A program made the translations under genes and the position numbers. From assembly GCF_001306145.1 (NCBI RefSeq), contig NZ_LGKO01000002.1:1-64000 (forward strand): DNA of 64,000 nt. The letters are read 5' to 3'. Shown here one piece after another: positions 8,882-59,029 of the stretch. The notes under the pieces were generated by a model. It saw nothing but the letters and a program-made list of their open reading frames with translations, ran no database searches and had not been told where the DNA came from. This DNA comes from Thermanaerothrix daxensis. GTDB lineage: Bacteria; Chloroflexota; Anaerolineae; Anaerolineales; Anaerolineaceae. Position 1 is the first letter of the stretch. Each line of letters begins with the position of its first letter.

Positions 8882-9958
8882 TTACTCCAGGCGTGCGAAA
8901 ATCATCCGTCCAGCCGAGGTCTGGAGGACTTTGGTGACCACAACCGTCACCTGTTGGTTGATATAATCTTTTCCGTTTTCGACGACCACCATCGTCCCGT
9001 CATCCAGATATCCCACGCCCTGGCCGGGCTCCTTGCCCTCCTGGATGATGCGGATGGAGAGGGTTTCGCCGGGGAGCAGGGCGGATTTGACCGCGTTGGC
9101 CAGTTCGTTGACATTGAGGACGCGCACCCCTTGCAGTTCGGCCACCCGGTTGAGGTTGTAGTCGTTGGTGAGGATGGGGCAGCGCAACTGCCGCGCCAGG
9201 ATGACCAGTTTATCATCCACCTCACGCACGCCCTCGACATCAATGTCGGTGATGCGCACCGGCACGCCGCCGGGTTCCTTTTGCAGTTGGGCCAGCACTT
9301 CCAGGCCGCGCCGCCCGCGTTGCCGGCGCAGACTGTCGGAGGAGTCGGCGATGTACTGCAATTCGTTGAGCACAAAACGCGGGATGAGCAGCGTGCCGGG
9401 GATGAAACCGGTGCGGGCGATATCGGCGATGCGCCCATCAATGATGACGCTGGTATCCAGCAGGATGTTGCGGTTTTCGTACCAGGATTTGGGTGACTCG
9501 GCTTCGCGGGCTCCGCCTCTGGTAAAACCCGAGAAGAGATTGAAGAGATCGTGCTGACGCATGACGAAGACGGTCACGCCCAGGTAGCCGAAAACCAGGA
9601 CACCGATGAAGGGAAGGACTTCCCCCAAAGGGGAGGGCAGACGCGAGAGCGGAAAAGCCAGCAGCGCGGCAATGATCAAGCCGGCAATAAGTCCGAAAAG
9701 TGCGGCAAAGAGGGTTTGCGCCGAGACGCGGGTCAGGGTTGAACGAATGGCGCGCATGGGGCGCGTGGTGATGTAGGGGGTGAGGATAAGACCGACCAGG
9801 GCACCGACCATCCCAAGGGTGAGCGCATACTGCTCCACGGTGAAGGTGGTGGGTGTGGGATTGAGGTTGGCCAGTTGGCCGAGTTGGGTGCCCCAAATGA
9901 CACCCAGAATACAAAAGACAACCATGCCAATGAGACGAGCAATGAAATCGGCGCTCAT
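8882..9958 (-). CDS. membrane-anchored PIN-TRAM domain protein (YacL-like)
   Basis: 358 residues. Four membrane segments in the first 135 residues, then a PIN nuclease domain starting NILLDTSVIIDGRIADI (164-180) with acidic residues D169, D174 and E199 placed as in PIN active sites, and a C-terminal TRAM domain (about 295-350, GYLDDGTMVVVENG). The PilT/PIN-TRAM family is widespread in Gram-positives and Chloroflexota; its RNA substrate is unknown. AAAGGAGTCATC precedes ATG 9958. It probably heads the transcript that runs into cysS. Confidence 0.88.
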   Translation of the reverse strand: MSADFIARLIGMVVFCILGVIWGTQLGQLANLNPTPTTFTVEQYALTLGMVGALVGLILTPYITTRPMRAIRSTLTRVSAQTLFAALFGLIAGLIIAALLAFPLSRLPSPLGEVLPFIGVLVFGYLGVTVFVMRQHDLFNLFSGFTRGGAREAESPKSWYENRNILLDTSVIIDGRIADIARTGFIPGTLLIPRFVLNELQYIADSSDSLRRQRGRRGLEVLAQLQKEPGGVPVRITDIDVEGVREVDDKLVILARQLRCPILTNDYNLNRVAELQGVRVLNVNELANAVKSALLPGETLSIRIIQEGKEPGQGVGYLDDGTMVVVENGKDYINQQVTVVVTKVLQTSAGRMIFARLE

Positions 9959-10455
9959 GATGACTCCTTTCTAAATAACCTCGGTTGTTAAGGTGCGGGA
10001 TGAACGACCAGATGGAAAGATACAGAGGAATAATTCCGGAAGTAATTGAATCATAGCATGCCCGCGGGCCAAAGTCAATGACGCGCAGCAGGTTGAAAAC
10101 CGGGCCGGGGTGGCGATGAAAGGGAGGAGCCAGGCGCCTAAAAGGGTAAAACGGAGGTATTAGAGGGGTTTGGTTAGATATTAGGTGTAAGTTAATGTTT
10201 TAAGTTTGTTTGGCTTGACAAGTCGGGTTTTTTTATGCTAAATTAAGGCTGTCTTTACGCCGCTTTTACGCATTTTTTATGGAGGTCCTCGGGGGTGTGT
10301 AAAACGCAAAGCCAGCCATCAGCCTGTCAAATGTGAATCGGTGTGAGAAGAACCCCTTGCTCGGCGAGGGGTGTTTGGGTATTGGGTCGAAAAGGGCGCA
10401 TTGCCCTTAGGGCTATTCCAAACCATTTAGGGAGGTCATTAGAAGGAGGCTCAAT
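9959..10455 (+). other. intergenic region with promoter and structured 5' leader
   Basis: About 500 bases without a convincing gene. The left part is the upstream region of the PIN-TRAM gene. The right part holds the promoter of the beta-helix gene (10215-10244) and about 205 bases of untranslated leader. The leader contains an 8-bp hairpin with a 3-base loop (CCCCTTGC at 10353-10360 with GCGAGGGG at 10364-10371) and a 6-bp hairpin (AAGGGC 10392-10397 with GCCCTT 10403-10408). It could carry a regulatory RNA, but matches no class I can name. Confidence 0.6.
10215..10244 (+). promoter_or_regulatory. sigma-70 promoter of the beta-helix gene
   Basis: TTGACA (10215-10220, perfect consensus), an 18-base spacer, and TAAATT (10239-10244) preceded by TG one base upstream (extended -10). 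Transcription would start near 10251 and leave a leader of roughly 205 bases before ATG 10456. Confidence 0.75.
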
Positions 10456-13400
10456 ATGAAAGGAACTGGTTGGGTGCGTTTTCTTGTTTTGGTTGTTTTG
10501 CTGGCATCGCTGGTGCTGGGGGGAGGTCACATCTACCGGGTGCAGGCAGAGGGTGCGCCAGTTACGGTGGTTTTAGGGATTGACCGAGCCCAGTTGGCTA
10601 ACGCCAGTGCCGTGCAATTGTCAGACAGCCCGCTGGGAAAGGGGGCATGGTGGTTCAATAAAAGTGCCACCAAAATGGAATTGTACATAGATCCCACAAT
10701 GTCACCGTTTGATGATATCCTGGGATCATTCACAATTGATGACATTGCCAGCATTTCATACCAGACTAAAAAGCCCGGTGATGCGGGGTCTGTAGATTTC
10801 TACCTGGCTATTTACACCACGCCGGATGGGGAAGATGATACTACCGGTTGGTACGGTTACCGCCTAAATGCCGAGCCCTATCTCTCAAACAATTTGAACG
10901 CCCCTGCCAATAACTGGAATACCTGGAGCACTGACGAGGGGTCCAATCAATTGACGTTCTTCGACACCGCGAAGACGGGAGGATACGGCTTCTACGGTCA
11001 GCCGACTCTGCAGGATCTGCAAGCGGGGGCGATTAATTGGTCCTCCATCCCAAATTGTGCACCCTCCTGTGTGGATCAATCCATTGATTACGGTGCGGAG
11101 ACGGTCAAGTATATTTCCATACAAACCGGGAGCAGTTGGAGTAGCACCTTCGAGGGTTATCTGGATAACCTCTCAATCCGCTTGAAGGATGGCAAGAAGG
11201 TTACCATTGATTTTGAGGTCTTTTACGACCAAACCTGGGTAGATGACGATGCGGATGACCCATGGTACCTGGTTCCGAGTCACTTTAAGACCATTCAAAG
11301 TGCGATTGATGCAACTGCTCCGGGTGGGACGGTGTACGTGCACCCGGGGGAGTATCACGAGACGGCCACTAATCGAAAACTCTTCAATAACTCGGGCCCT
11401 TACCAATTTGGCCTCTTCATCGGGCAAGATAAAGCGGGCCTAAAGGTCATGGGCGTAGATGAGGACGGTAACCCCATTGCCGATTACGGGAATGTGGGGG
11501 CCCGCGTAACAACCTATGCCACTAACTCCTTTGGTTACTCCGGCATATTCGTAGAAGCAGACAATGTGACCTTACAGGGCCTGGAAATTAAGGACAACAT
11601 TGTCAACGACCAGGTTAGCAACAATAAGACCATTGAGGTCATAGGAGACAACTTTACCCTGCGCTACTGCCACATCAACGTTGGAGCAGGAGAGGAGGAC
11701 GGAGGCTCGGTTTACATTGGTGATTGGCGCTTTGACAAGAACACTTCCACCTCGCATATTCGTGGTTACACACTGGAATACAACTGGTTTGATCACGGCA
11801 CCAGTGTAGATATTGCCAACGGTGCGGGAATTTCGGGAGAGGTGTCACAGCGCCAGATCGTCCATAATAAGTTCACCAACGACTCGGATGACTACTGGCC
11901 CTTTATTTCATTCAACGGCTCGGGAACCGGTGTGCCTTGGTTCGTGTACTCCGTGGGCGGTGCTACCATCAAGGATAATAACTTCACTTACAATTACAAA
12001 GGAATCGGTCCTGGAGTGGCTCATATCCGTGCTCGCGGAACTTACGATAATTCGCAATTTGACTGGGCTTCTTACTGGCAGGATAACACTTTCAATCAGG
12101 CAGTGGTGGCCGGGAGCAATCCGCCTGCCGATCTAAGCACTTATAGTTATGTCTCGGGGTCCTATCAATTCGACAACGTGCGCCGAATCGGGGTTACCAT
12201 TCAGAACGAAGTGGAAAAGGCTACAAACGGCGATACCGTGCTGGTCAAGCCCGGCACTTACGAGGAGCAGGTAGTCATCAGCGGCAAGGACCTGACCTTG
12301 CAGGGGGCGGGGCAAACACCAGAGGACGTGGTGATTAAATCCCCAACCACGCTGACGGCTAAATTTACTACCCCCTCGGGGGATAACAAACCGGTTGTGC
12401 TGGTGCAGAGCAATGCCGATGTAACCCTGAGTAATCTCAAAGTGGACGGCGCCGGGAATGGTGGGAATAATTATCGCTTTGTCGGCATTGGCTTCTACAA
12501 CGCCGGCGGCACGGTCGAGGGGGTCACCATCACCGGCGTGCGTGATAATCCCTTATCGGGTAGCCAGCACGGATTGGGGCTCTATGCCTACAATGGGGAT
12601 GGGCAATCCCGCACGCTGACCGTGCGCAACGTCGCGGTGAGCGACTTCCAAAAGAACGGCATCACCGTGGTCGGCAGTGGCCTGGAGGTTACGATCGAAA
12701 ACAACGAGGTGACGGGCGCCGGCAGCACCGATAAGATTGCCCAGAACGGCATTCAGGTCTCCTCCGGGGCCGCCGGAACGGTGCGCAACAACACCATCAC
12801 CGGCATTGCCTACAGCGGCAAGGACTGGGTAGCCTCGGGCATTTTGGTTTACGGCGCTGGTAGCACCACGGTGGAAGGCAACACCCTGACGAACAGCCAG
12901 GCTAATATTTATGTAGTAGATTCCGGCGCCACCATCCGGGGCAACCGCATCGGTAACCCTGCCTGTGTGGGAGATGGGTGCTACGGGATCGTCGCCAGCG
13001 ATCCGCTGACGGCGCACCCCAGCCCGCTGGAGGAGGCGCTCACCACCCCCGCCCTCCCGAGCCGCAGCGGCACCTTCGCGAGCCTGAGTGCAACCAACCC
13101 ACTGGATGAGGTGACCGTCACCGCGAATGAAATCCGCGGAACCGCCTACACCCCGGGTGAGAGCGTGGGGTTGGGGATCTACGAGGGTTATGCGGATCGT
13201 GACCTGAGCGTCAGCGCCAGCCAGAACGTGATTTCGGGGTGGTCCCACGGGGTTTACGTGGGGACCTGTAGTGGGGACGGCTGTAAGAGTGGTCGCTTGC
13301 GCGCCCTGCTCCTCAACGAAAATGCCATCACCGAGAACGGCGTGGGCATGGTCACCGAACTCAGCCTGGGTCTCAATGCCGAACGCAACTGGTGGGGCTC

Positions 13401-14301
13401 GCCGCGCGGTCCGCAGGTGGCGAGCAACCCCGGTGGGGATGGGCAGTCCCTCCAGGGGAGCGGGATTGACTACGTGCCCTGGCTGTGCGATGGCACGGAC
13501 GCCCAGCCGGGTACAATCGGCTTCCAGCCCCTGAGCAATGCGGCTACCTGCACCAACATCGCCACTCGCCTGCGCTTCGTGGTGCAGCCGCCGGCCACGG
13601 CCTTCACCAACGAGCCGTTTGACCCACAGCCGGTGGTGCGGGTAGAAGATAACGCGGGCAACCTGGCGATTAATTATGATTTTCCCGTCCGCATCGAGCT
13701 GGCTGTTAACCCCCCAGCCGGCCATTTGGGCGGCACGCTCTCGGTGGTGCCGGACAATGGTCTGGCAACCTTTGCCAATCTCTTCCTTGACAAGGCCGGC
13801 GCGGGCTACCGTCTGATTGCAACCTCGACCTCGGGCGGCCTCTACCCGGCATGGAGTGAGTTCTTCTCCGTTGTAGACCCCAGCGCGGATCTGGCGGTGA
13901 GCCTGAGCGCCCCGGCCAGCGTGAACGCGGGCACGGACTTTGCCTACACCCTGATGGTGAGCAACGCCGGGCCCAAGCCCGCCAACGCTCTGACCCTCAC
14001 CCTGAGCCTGCCCACGGAGGTGGCTTACCGAAGCGCGAGCGGTAGTGGCTGGACCTGCTCGCACAGCGCCGGTACGGTTACCTGCACCTTGGGCAGCCTG
14101 GCCAAAGGCGCCCCCTCAACCCTGGTGGTGAACGTCACGGCGCCGGCTCAGGCGGGCGACCTGACGGCGAGCGCCAGCCTCCAGGCGGCGACCCCTCCGG
14201 ATACCAACCCGGCCAATAACAGCGCCAGCGCCTCCACCACGGTAGTGGTCCTGCCCCCGACCGGCGGTGTGCAGGTGTACCTGCCGCTGATCATGCGCTA
14301 A
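10456..14301 (+). CDS. large secreted right-handed beta-helix protein with DUF11 domain and Y-L-P-L-I tail
   Basis: 1281 residues. A signal peptide (residues 1-33, hydrophobic run LVLVVLLASLVLGGG, cut near VQA-EG) directs export. After a roughly 230-residue N-terminal domain there are two parallel beta-helix domains, each opening with the NosD/pectate-lyase-like cap: TIQSAIDATAPGGTVYVHPG (about 277) and TIQNEVEKATNGDTVLVKPG (about 578). A DUF11/CARDB-type beta-sandwich follows at 1144-1265, and the protein ends VQVYLPLIMR. No catalytic residues can be assigned; it may bind or cleave a polysaccharide. GC content and codon use rise sharply near position 12450. AGAAGGAGGC precedes the ATG. A cyclic-di-GMP-controlled sortase-like gene is convergent with it. 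Confidence 0.9.
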   Translation: MKGTGWVRFLVLVVLLASLVLGGGHIYRVQAEGAPVTVVLGIDRAQLANASAVQLSDSPLGKGAWWFNKSATKMELYIDPTMSPFDDILGSFTIDDIASISYQTKKPGDAGSVDFYLAIYTTPDGEDDTTGWYGYRLNAEPYLSNNLNAPANNWNTWSTDEGSNQLTFFDTAKTGGYGFYGQPTLQDLQAGAINWSSIPNCAPSCVDQSIDYGAETVKYISIQTGSSWSSTFEGYLDNLSIRLKDGKKVTIDFEVFYDQTWVDDDADDPWYLVPSHFKTIQSAIDATAPGGTVYVHPGEYHETATNRKLFNNSGPYQFGLFIGQDKAGLKVMGVDEDGNPIADYGNVGARVTTYATNSFGYSGIFVEADNVTLQGLEIKDNIVNDQVSNNKTIEVIGDNFTLRYCHINVGAGEEDGGSVYIGDWRFDKNTSTSHIRGYTLEYNWFDHGTSVDIANGAGISGEVSQRQIVHNKFTNDSDDYWPFISFNGSGTGVPWFVYSVGGATIKDNNFTYNYKGIGPGVAHIRARGTYDNSQFDWASYWQDNTFNQAVVAGSNPPADLSTYSYVSGSYQFDNVRRIGVTIQNEVEKATNGDTVLVKPGTYEEQVVISGKDLTLQGAGQTPEDVVIKSPTTLTAKFTTPSGDNKPVVLVQSNADVTLSNLKVDGAGNGGNNYRFVGIGFYNAGGTVEGVTITGVRDNPLSGSQHGLGLYAYNGDGQSRTLTVRNVAVSDFQKNGITVVGSGLEVTIENNEVTGAGSTDKIAQNGIQVSSGAAGTVRNNTITGIAYSGKDWVASGILVYGAGSTTVEGNTLTNSQANIYVVDSGATIRGNRIGNPACVGDGCYGIVASDPLTAHPSPLEEALTTPALPSRSGTFASLSATNPLDEVTVTANEIRGTAYTPGESVGLGIYEGYADRDLSVSASQNVISGWSHGVYVGTCSGDGCKSGRLRALLLNENAITENGVGMVTELSLGLNAERNWWGSPRGPQVASNPGGDGQSLQGSGIDYVPWLCDGTDAQPGTIGFQPLSNAATCTNIATRLRFVVQPPATAFTNEPFDPQPVVRVEDNAGNLAINYDFPVRIELAVNPPAGHLGGTLSVVPDNGLATFANLFLDKAGAGYRLIATSTSGGLYPAWSEFFSVVDPSADLAVSLSAPASVNAGTDFAYTLMVSNAGPKPANALTLTLSLPTEVAYRSASGSGWTCSHSAGTVTCTLGSLAKGAPSTLVVNVTAPAQAGDLTASASLQAATPPDTNPANNSASASTTVVVLPPTGGVQVYLPLIMR

Positions 14302-14327
14302 GCCCATCTTTTCCCCATCCCGCCTAA

Positions 14328-14363
14328 GCCCCGCCGCAGCCCCCGCGGCGGGGCACCCTTTTT
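14328..14363. terminator. terminator between beta-helix gene and sortase-like gene
   Basis: Perfect 10-bp stem (GCCCCGCCGC 14328-14337 with GCGGCGGGGC 14345-14354) followed by CTTTTT at 14358-14362. It serves the plus-strand gene; its end touches the stop codon of the convergent sortase-like gene. Confidence 0.85.
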
Positions 14364-15036
14364 AAGGCTCCGGCTCGGCGATGACGAAGAGCCGTCCCCA
14401 GGTGCTCAGCCCATCGCGGGCGATGCAGGTTTGCAGGGTCAGATGGGCCGGGCCCATGTAGTGGCGGGCAAACACCTCGGCGGCGGTGAGAACCTCGCCG
14501 GTGGCAAGGTCTTTGAAATCGCTGGTGGGGCTGTTGGGTTGCAGGGCCTGGTACTCGTAACGCCGGCTGACGCGGTAGGCGTGGCTGCGCCCATCGCCCT
14601 CGATGAGCCAAACCTGCGCTCCCTCTTTTAGGTCAAAGAAGCGGGCGCCGGCCAGCGTGTTGTGGGCCAGCAGACCGATCACCGGGGGGCGGGCCAGGCC
14701 GAACTGGGTGACGGTATCCGGCTGGGAGGTGATGTACGTGTAATTGTCGGCCGGCTGCTGGTCCACACGGTAAGCCAGTACGTTCTCCACGTACACCCCA
14801 CGCAGGACCCCGGCCTGACCATCGCTTACCTGGGCGATAAAAGCCTGCAAGGTGAGGACGGATTCGGCGTGTCCCCCGGTAGTGGGGATTTCATCGCTGT
14901 TGAGATTGAGGATGACGGGCAGGTAGAGGCGCTGCTCCCCGCCCTCCGCAGCGTGAGCAGTCAGCGGCCAGGCCACCACCAACCCGACTGCGAACACCCA
15001 TCCCGTTATTAACCACTGCGCGAGGCGCTTCATCAT
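14362..15036 (-). CDS. sortase-like cysteine transpeptidase, secreted
   Basis: 224 residues from ATG 15036, chosen because AGGAGGGAA lies just before it; six codons more are open upstream. Signal peptide/anchor at 1-30 (LITGWVFAVGLVVAWPLTAHA). Sortase signatures: histidine H125 in GLLAHNTLAG, the catalytic-cysteine motif TLQTC (200-204, T-L-x-T-C form) and arginine R215 in TWGRLFVIAEP. Right after the signal peptide is RLYLPVILN, resembling the YLPLI tail of the neighbouring secreted protein. A sortase would cut a sorting signal and link the product to an amine on the surface; no LPxTG protein is in the window. Its leader is a cyclic-di-GMP-I riboswitch. Confidence 0.82.
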   Translation of the reverse strand: MMKRLAQWLITGWVFAVGLVVAWPLTAHAAEGGEQRLYLPVILNLNSDEIPTTGGHAESVLTLQAFIAQVSDGQAGVLRGVYVENVLAYRVDQQPADNYTYITSQPDTVTQFGLARPPVIGLLAHNTLAGARFFDLKEGAQVWLIEGDGRSHAYRVSRRYEYQALQPNSPTSDFKDLATGEVLTAAEVFARHYMGPAHLTLQTCIARDGLSTWGRLFVIAEPEP

Positions 15037-15125
15037 TTCCCTCCTGGACGACAAGAGCGCCCCGCGGCGAACGGCACGGCAGTCCGGTCGGTTTCAGGCC
15101 GGCCTGGCGCGGGCACAAAAAACCG

Positions 15126-15230
15126 CTCGTTTTCGGCAGCCTGGCAATCATAGGCCTGCGTTGGATGCAGACCCTTAGACCCATGGCTTTGCGTCGCCGG
15201 CTTTCGCCGGGTTTGCCCTTGTCGAACGAG
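15126..15230 (-). ncRNA. cyclic-di-GMP-I (GEMM-I) riboswitch
   Basis: Read on the minus strand, the conserved core of the GEMM-I aptamer is intact: GGGCAAACC, a GAAA tetraloop closed by CCGGC/GCCGG, GACGCAAAGCC, a GGGTCTAA segment, a variable arm closed by TGCG/CGCA, and GCCAGGCTGCCG. The outer helix P1 is formed by CTCGTT (15230-15225) and AACGAG (15131-15126). A run of six U (15122-15117) follows P1 directly, and AAAAC/GUUUU can pair across AACGAG as a weak alternative stem, so a P1/terminator switch is possible. The sortase-like ATG is about 80 bases downstream. Intracellular c-di-GMP should therefore set sortase expression. Confidence 0.94.
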
Positions 15231-15390
15231 TCGTTACGACGTTATACGTTTGTAGGGGCGACCCGGTTAATTCGGGAGATTAGCCGGGAAACCCTCTATT
15301 TGCACTATAGGCTGTGCAAGGCGATTCTGAAGGGGAATTTTTGTAATCGGCCTTTACACTTTTGTAAGGCAGGTCGGTTTCTAAGGCGGC
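15231..15390 (-). promoter_or_regulatory. promoter region of the riboswitch-sortase transcript
   Basis: No gene is visible here. On the minus strand TATAAC (15246-15241) lies 18 bases after TTAACC and would start transcription right at the riboswitch. A second box, TATAGT, lies further upstream near 15306-15311. Both -35 elements are poor, so the exact promoter is uncertain. Confidence 0.35.
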
Positions 15391-15801
15391 CTAGGCTTCC
15401 GGGGGTAGTGGTGTGGAGGATTGTGCCTGGCACGCCCGGCACAGCCCGAAGAGGATCAGGTGGTTGGTTTGCAGGCGGAAGGCGTAGGTATTCTCGATGG
15501 CGGCGAAGAAGGGCCCTACCTGAGAGTGGTCAATGGTTAATACCTGCCCGCACCCCGTGCAGACCAGGTGGTGGTGGAGGGGCTGGCCGACGCGTTCGTA
15601 GAGGGTGACCCCCTTGCCCATGTCTGAAACCGAGACCAGACCCTGCTGGGTCAGGCGCTCCAGGGCGCGGTACACCGTGGAGGGGGCGATGGCCGGCAGA
15701 CGGGCTTTGAGGCGTTCGTAGATCTCCAGCGCGCTCAAGTGGCTGTCTCCCTCACCTGCGAGCACATCTAAAATGGCCAGTTGCACTGAGGATTGTCGCA
15801 T
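15391..15801 (-). CDS. Fur-family metalloregulator, probable nickel/cobalt-uptake repressor
   Basis: 136 residues, normal for Fur/Zur/PerR/Nur proteins. The winged helix occupies 5-70 (APSTVYRALERLTQQGLVS is the recognition region). HHHLVCTGCG (76-85) gives the histidine cluster and the first Cys pair (C81, C84); C121-x2-C124 is the second structural zinc pair. It is divergent from a nickel/cobalt ECF importer, so sensing of nickel or cobalt (Nur-like) is the likeliest job; zinc or iron sensing cannot be excluded from sequence. A short inverted repeat lies directly before its start codon and may be used for autoregulation. Confidence 0.85.
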   Translation of the reverse strand: MRQSSVQLAILDVLAGEGDSHLSALEIYERLKARLPAIAPSTVYRALERLTQQGLVSVSDMGKGVTLYERVGQPLHHHLVCTGCGQVLTIDHSQVGPFFAAIENTYAFRLQTNHLILFGLCRACQAQSSTPLPPEA

Positions 15802-58854: not shown

Positions 58855-59008
58855 ACAATTGAAATTGTGCTTCACCGTAGAAAGCAGGTGCCCCTCCTGG
58901 GGCTTAATATCCCGCCGAGGTGGAGACCGGAAGTGTGTGAAAGCGGCTACCTTTGAGGTAGTTTCCAGGTCTTTGCCCGGCGCCCTGCAGGCAAAGACCT
59001 TTATTTTT
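58855..59008 (+). ncRNA. L10 ribosomal-protein leader with attenuator
   Basis: The leader contains CCGTAGAAAGCAGGTGCCCC...GGGGCTTAATATCCCGCCGAGGT, the kink-turn region bound by the L10-(L12)4 complex in other bacteria, and ends in a strong hairpin (AGGTCTTTGCC 58967-58977 with GGCAAAGACCT 58990-59000) followed by TTATTTTT. L10 excess would favour termination. The L10 ribosome-binding site is 13 bases on. Confidence 0.85.
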
Positions 59009-59029
59009 GTGGAAAGGAGGTGACATTCA

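Follow-up and report, generated by a model that had tools for sequence, protein, structure and literature searches.

A c-di-GMP-I riboswitch before a divergent sortase gene of Thermanaerothrix daxensis and its relatives in Anaerolineae: a predicted translational OFF switch

The window analysed here, a 64-kb stretch of Thermanaerothrix daxensis DNA, carries a minus-strand sortase gene preceded by a structured leader and, convergent with it, a plus-strand gene for a large adhesin-like protein. The features of the locus are as follows.

10456..14301, plus strand: gene for a convergent secreted adhesin-like protein of 1281 aa with beta-helix and DUF11 regions, ending LPPTG-GVQV-YLPLIMR; candidate substrate
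14251..14301, plus strand: C-terminal end of the adhesin, with LPPTG (14251-14265), a YLP box (14272-14298) and no membrane helix after them
14362..15036, minus strand: sortase gene, 224 aa from 15036; the ATG at 15033 is better spaced and would give 223 aa
15012..15075, minus strand: start-codon hairpin, predicted as the OFF state with ligand bound; its loop holds the Shine-Dalgarno AGGAG and its 3' arm the AUG
15040..15045, minus strand: Shine-Dalgarno AGGAGG, read from the sequence
15049..15058, minus strand: anti-aptamer element GCUCUUGUCG; its alternatives are a helix with the aptamer 5' strand and a place in the start-codon hairpin
15117..15122, minus strand: T6 run 3' of P1, read from the sequence; not at that place in most relatives
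15132..15227, minus strand: c-di-GMP-I (GEMM-I) aptamer, RF01051 at 79.6 bits, or 88 bits with the relatives' model
15215..15224, minus strand: aptamer 5' strand CGACAAGGGC, forming a 10-bp helix with the anti-aptamer element that none of 200 shuffles equalled
15225..15230, minus strand: P1 5' strand CUCGUU, read directly from the sequence, with its partner AACGAG at 15126-15131 (6 bp)
15304..15331, minus strand: sigma-70-like promoter candidate, TTCAGA and TATAGT spaced by 16 nt; it precedes the aptamer by about 77 nt

The product of the sortase gene matches the NCBIfam model NF053836 (sortase_YLP) at 251 bits against a cut-off of 125 (E 7.5e-75), scores 18.1 bits with Pfam Sortase PF04203, below the cut-off of 26.6, and has no match among PDB sequences by profile search. 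The catalytic His, Cys and Arg (H124, C203 and R214) are invariant across 62 homologues. Sortases are the top structural match of its AlphaFold2 model (mean pLDDT 86.9; VIA Z 13.1 and rmsd 2.4 over 118 residues with sortase C1, 3re9), and the best Foldseek matches are likewise sortases. Because the sortase_YLP match is strong and the Pfam match weak, the catalytic residues are invariant, and the predicted structure resembles solved sortases, the product is classified from sequence and model as a divergent sortase, which bears out the preliminary description of a 224-residue sortase-like gene. Behind the signal peptide, its N-terminus carries RLYLPVILN (a YLP box) and EIPTTG. A Fur-family gene (15391-15801) lies upstream on the same strand, and the genome also contains a second sortase_YLP gene and a second GEMM-I site, located apart from each other.

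An Rfam scan of the whole 64 kb places RF01051 at 15227..15132 on the minus strand, covering the full model (positions 1-87) with 79.6 bits, far over the gathering score of 35 (E 5e-14), and this is the sole c-di-GMP-I match in the window; a covariance model built from 28 relatives gives it 88 bits. The same window contains a ribosomal protein L10 leader (RF00557, 57.3 bits) at 58857-59014. The GEMM-I core elements and the 6-bp P1 with T6 behind it, from which the riboswitch had originally been proposed, are all present, including the GAAA tetraloop, the conserved junction GACGCAAAGCC, and, by alignment, G at position G20 and A at position A47 in Vc2 numbering. The leader carries a single aptamer, and a search of 9700-15400 with the local model and filters off found no second GEMM-I near the sortase gene (next best 6.1 bits). 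About 95 nt separate the aptamer from the Shine-Dalgarno sequence, and the promoter candidate, a consensus match only, is the one site found against 0.2 expected. The end of a diguanylate cyclase gene, mentioned earlier as lying in the same window, does exist as a GGDEF domain straddling the window end (63866-64315, minus strand), but it is 49 kb away and unlinked to the locus. The genome encodes nine GGDEF domains, making c-di-GMP plausible as the signal.

The association of this aptamer with sortases extends well beyond one genome. Among 151 related genomes, RF01051 occurs in 67 and sortase_YLP in 71, and GEMM-I stands upstream on the same strand of 25 of the 103 sortase_YLP genes with readable surroundings, in tandem in 12 of these 25; the same 25 represent the sortase-linked part of 127 listed GEMM-I loci. 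A further 80 loci, all from Chloroflexota, were found by sortase sequence alone, with a query built from riboswitch-linked members that biases the sample to that subfamily and with some genomes shared with the first sample; 60 of them have GEMM-I upstream, mostly in tandem (46 of 59 relatives). On the sortase tree the riboswitch label clusters, requiring 6 changes against 22.5 after shuffling (0 of 500 as low). Riboswitch-linked sortases occur in three genome families (f1, f12 and f14), flanking genes differ between clades, and cultured carriers include Bellilinea caldifistulae, Leptolinea tardivitalis and Leptolinea sp. HRD-7; a same-genus genome (G001, 88% complete) lacks this sortase copy. 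The proposed search for RF01051 near sortases in other Anaerolineae has thus returned many cases, and these comparisons support a c-di-GMP riboswitch before a sortase as a conserved arrangement across Anaerolineae. Its retention over the whole class indicates that the pairing of aptamer and sortase is under selection.

GEMM-I aptamers also precede genes of other kinds. The second GEMM-I of this genome stands before an S8-like protease, and sequence reading places aptamers before S8-like secreted proteases at L222, L223, L244, L274, L292 and L296, the genome's second site included. At L231, L242, L254, L256, L266 and L282, GEMM-I immediately precedes proteins with an EAL-like FQGY segment at their end, a possible c-di-GMP feedback on its own breakdown.

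Comparison of the leaders revealed a conserved element between aptamer and gene. The motif GCYYUURUC, or a one-wobble variant, lies just 5' of the Shine-Dalgarno sequence in 16 of 25 leaders. It is complementary, with or without wobble pairs, to the aptamer 5' strand GAYAARRGC, and the two can form an anti-aptamer helix of 9-12 bp in these 16. The element keeps a steady place near the start, and its distance from the aptamer ranges from 36 to 169 nt. Over 15 distinct but related sequences, 100% of the cells of the helix pair, a percentage that is partly by construction given an alignment anchored on the complement, and register-slid controls reach at most 49%; covariation scores 0.305, compared with 0.190 after shuffling (0 of 500 as high). 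Three pairs have changed on both sides, and these double changes are the stronger part of the covariation evidence.

The same element sits in the 5' arm of a start-codon hairpin whose 3' arm contains the AUG and the first codons. In the window, the region from -45 to +25 folds with an MFE of -31.7 kcal/mol and leaves the AUG unpaired with a probability of 0.03. This hairpin is specific to riboswitch genes, the mean z being 2.94 in the 25 and 0.02 in the 78 sortase genes that lack the aptamer (p 1e-8), and the difference was repeated in further loci (2.92 in 45 with against -0.36 in 8 without, p 4e-6). The computed probability of an unpaired AUG in the window is 0.87 with the anti-aptamer element on the aptamer and 0.03 with the element released, and over 16 loci the corresponding values are 0.63 and 0.26 (p 0.0008). 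Thermodynamic folding of the ligand-free leader gives the anti-aptamer helix a probability of 0.87 in the window and near 0 in several relatives.

The sequence shows an aptamer, a sortase gene, the conserved link between the two, and alternative helices that covary. Together they make it quite probable that the c-di-GMP-I riboswitch governs translation of the sortase, which would be secreted or membrane-bound, and OFF is the most likely direction. In the absence of c-di-GMP, the element at 15049-15058 would pair with the aptamer 5' strand, holding the aptamer open and leaving the start codon free. Because that strand is needed in the ligand-bound fold, binding of c-di-GMP would close the aptamer and free the element, and the hairpin would then bury the AUG so that no sortase is made. 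Sortase production would accordingly be expected at low c-di-GMP. The earlier proposal of a sortase under c-di-GMP control gave no direction; its link between aptamer and gene stands and is conserved, and the platform points to repression at high c-di-GMP.

The Shine-Dalgarno sequence behaves differently from the start codon, its accessibility being 0.53 in the ligand-free state against 0.80 with the downstream part folded alone. The OFF reading rests on the AUG, and this opposite trend is its main reservation. It is also what would be expected if c-di-GMP turned the sortase on, the long helix between element and aptamer just 5' of the Shine-Dalgarno sequence blocking the ribosome until the ligand removes it, and GEMM-I aptamers are known as both ON and OFF switches (PMC9262584). 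However, the freed element forms the riboswitch-gene-specific start hairpin that buries the AUG, and the distal aptamers of tandem relatives have an OFF-type antiterminator and terminator, so that activation by the ligand seems unlikely.

The anti-aptamer helix was also considered as a universal platform and rejected, as at the threshold used the complement is missing from 9 of the first 25 loci and from 32 of the 45 added later. Many loci whose complement falls below threshold keep the start hairpin, and a second type of platform, UCUGGAUGCU/GGCAUCCAGA around the start codon, occurs among the loci added later.

Most relatives are predicted to have a second level of control. Between the tandem aptamers, an intrinsic terminator is found in 46 of 47 loci against 6.7 expected by shuffling, and a helix between its 5' arm and the 3' strand of the aptamer is possible, whose two sides have changed together in GCCAGGCC/GGCCUGGC, GCCAAGCC/GGCUUGGC and GCCAGACC/GGUCUGGC. 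Because of this possible pairing, the distal aptamer is probably an OFF switch too. The distal terminator and the proximal start hairpin are predicted to form a coherent pair acting on transcription and then on translation, the upstream aptamer contributing a ligand-favoured terminator and thereby shut-off at two levels. The window has the proximal kind of switch only.

A transcriptional OFF mechanism in the window itself, in which the ligand stabilises P1 and P1 with the U6 run (15117-15122) acts as an intrinsic terminator, is improbable. The U6 run does begin three bases behind the 6-bp P1, and in some distal aptamers of relatives (L108, L130 and L132) a T run directly follows P1. However, the terminator scan detects none in the window leader on the sortase strand, P1 with its 6 bp around a domain of 96 nt would make a poor terminator, and in the closest relatives (L160, L164, L176 and L181) no T run stands at that place. 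The T6 run described earlier is therefore present, at 15122-15117, but is not the likely switch, as most relatives lack a T run there.

Four sortase-linked relatives (L114, L123, L132 and L139) have an A at the Vc2 G20 ligand contact, a reported cGAMP-type change that would suit an aptamer sensing 3',3'-cGAMP, or one surviving as a relic, with the sortase outside c-di-GMP control. For the window such a reading is very unlikely, as its aptamer has G at that position and reaches 79.6 bits, and the linkage, the covarying platform and the start hairpin are kept across divergent genomes. An A at the same position is seen in 11 more aptamers among 81 that are not linked to sortases.

Several parts of this system have known counterparts. 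The window aptamer resembles Rfam RF01051 in sequence and in fold over the full model, as well as in its leader position, whereas its target, a sortase, and an anti-aptamer element that is conserved and doubles as part of a start-codon hairpin set it apart. In the class I riboswitches Cd1 and Cdi-1 of Clostridioides difficile, an antiterminator uses an aptamer strand and the ligand favours the terminator, giving an OFF switch (PMC9262584, PMC6200980), and the distal aptamers of the tandem relatives follow the same OFF logic. A terminator of the Cd1 type is present between the tandem aptamers of relatives, and the terminator scan found none downstream of the aptamer in the window leader on the sortase strand. 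In C. difficile, c-di-GMP controls sortase substrates through class II (ON) riboswitches and ZmpI, a protease cleaving them, through class I (OFF) (PMC9262584, PMC6200980), whereas the target in the window is the sortase itself and the predicted action is translational. Tandem c-di-GMP-I riboswitches have been described as 347 doublets (PMC9481103) and as a triple (PMC4759541). Most relatives share this two-aptamer arrangement, with the difference that their distal aptamer ends in a terminator and their proximal one in a start-codon hairpin; the window aptamer is single. Sortases are unmentioned in the main text of the 2022 tandem survey, and a literature search of openly accessible main texts found no c-di-GMP riboswitch on a sortase and no description of a GEMM-I regulon in Anaerolineae. 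GEMM-I aptamers, their tandem arrangement and OFF platforms are thus already known, and the sortase as a predicted target is the part that appears new.

The convergent adhesin-like protein is a candidate substrate of the sortase. Its YLP box (14272-14298) matches NF050076, the YLP-box putative sorting motif, at 16.2 bits against a cut-off of 15, just as the enzyme matches NF053836, and convergent proteins with such ends occupy the same place in G058, G116 and G150. The adhesin homologues in G116 and G150 have their own GEMM-I; for the adhesin in the window, a search with the relatives' model and filters off found no riboswitch of its own. Across the 151 genomes, however, the sortase tracks a different motif, L-IPVTG, which occurs in 81% of genomes with the sortase and 40% of those without (p 1.8e-7). 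The YLP box was considered as a family-wide partner of the sortase and rejected, since its counts, obtained with the NCBIfam motif model after DNA patterns had matched either too much or too little, do not follow the presence of the sortase (89% of genomes with it against 85% without, p 0.13). Proteins with IPVTG, a membrane helix and a basic tail adjoin the sortase in several genomes. A canonical sorting signal, C-terminal LIPVTG followed by a hydrophobic stretch and a basic tail, was seen in Anaerolineae at L035, L042, L062, L121, L131, L143, L146, L148, L159, L170 and L220, in some cases beside the sortase.

The N-terminus of the sortase shows a related pattern. In many sortase_YLP proteins (loci L096-L193), the LPxTG-like IPVTG lies just behind the N-terminal hydrophobic segment, and the window's clade has a YLP box there instead (14911-14925 in the window), so the sortase seems to bear its own substrate motif. 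Genomes whose sortase has an N-terminal YLP box (the window's, G004, G068, G116, G150 and G058) contain 5-33 YLP-box matches against a median of 3, a comparison of only six genomes, five from one clade (p 0.0004). In other secreted proteins of the genome (G000:C4:2378-2407, L201 and L216), a YLPLV or YLPII box stands right behind the signal peptide and not at the C-terminus. We tentatively consider that the c-di-GMP-repressed sortase may form a surface-coat switch, in which its own N-terminal motif (the YLP box for L118 and the window's clade, IPVTG for many other sortases) would mark the substrate class or serve self-processing, and adhesin processing would proceed at low c-di-GMP and stop at high c-di-GMP; this is a possibility and not the expected outcome.

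Collectively, these analyses place a sortase among the predicted targets of c-di-GMP in Anaerolineae, among whose members are filamentous bacteria living in wastewater sludge, in hot springs and in the subsurface. The second messenger is known to control adhesins and the proteases that release adhesins, and through the riboswitch it would directly control an enzyme handling sorting-motif proteins, making it reasonable to regard the biofilm signal as tied to surface protein processing. The cultured carriers Bellilinea caldifistulae and Leptolinea tardivitalis make the system testable. The predicted repression at high signal runs counter to the simple idea that a biofilm signal means more anchoring.
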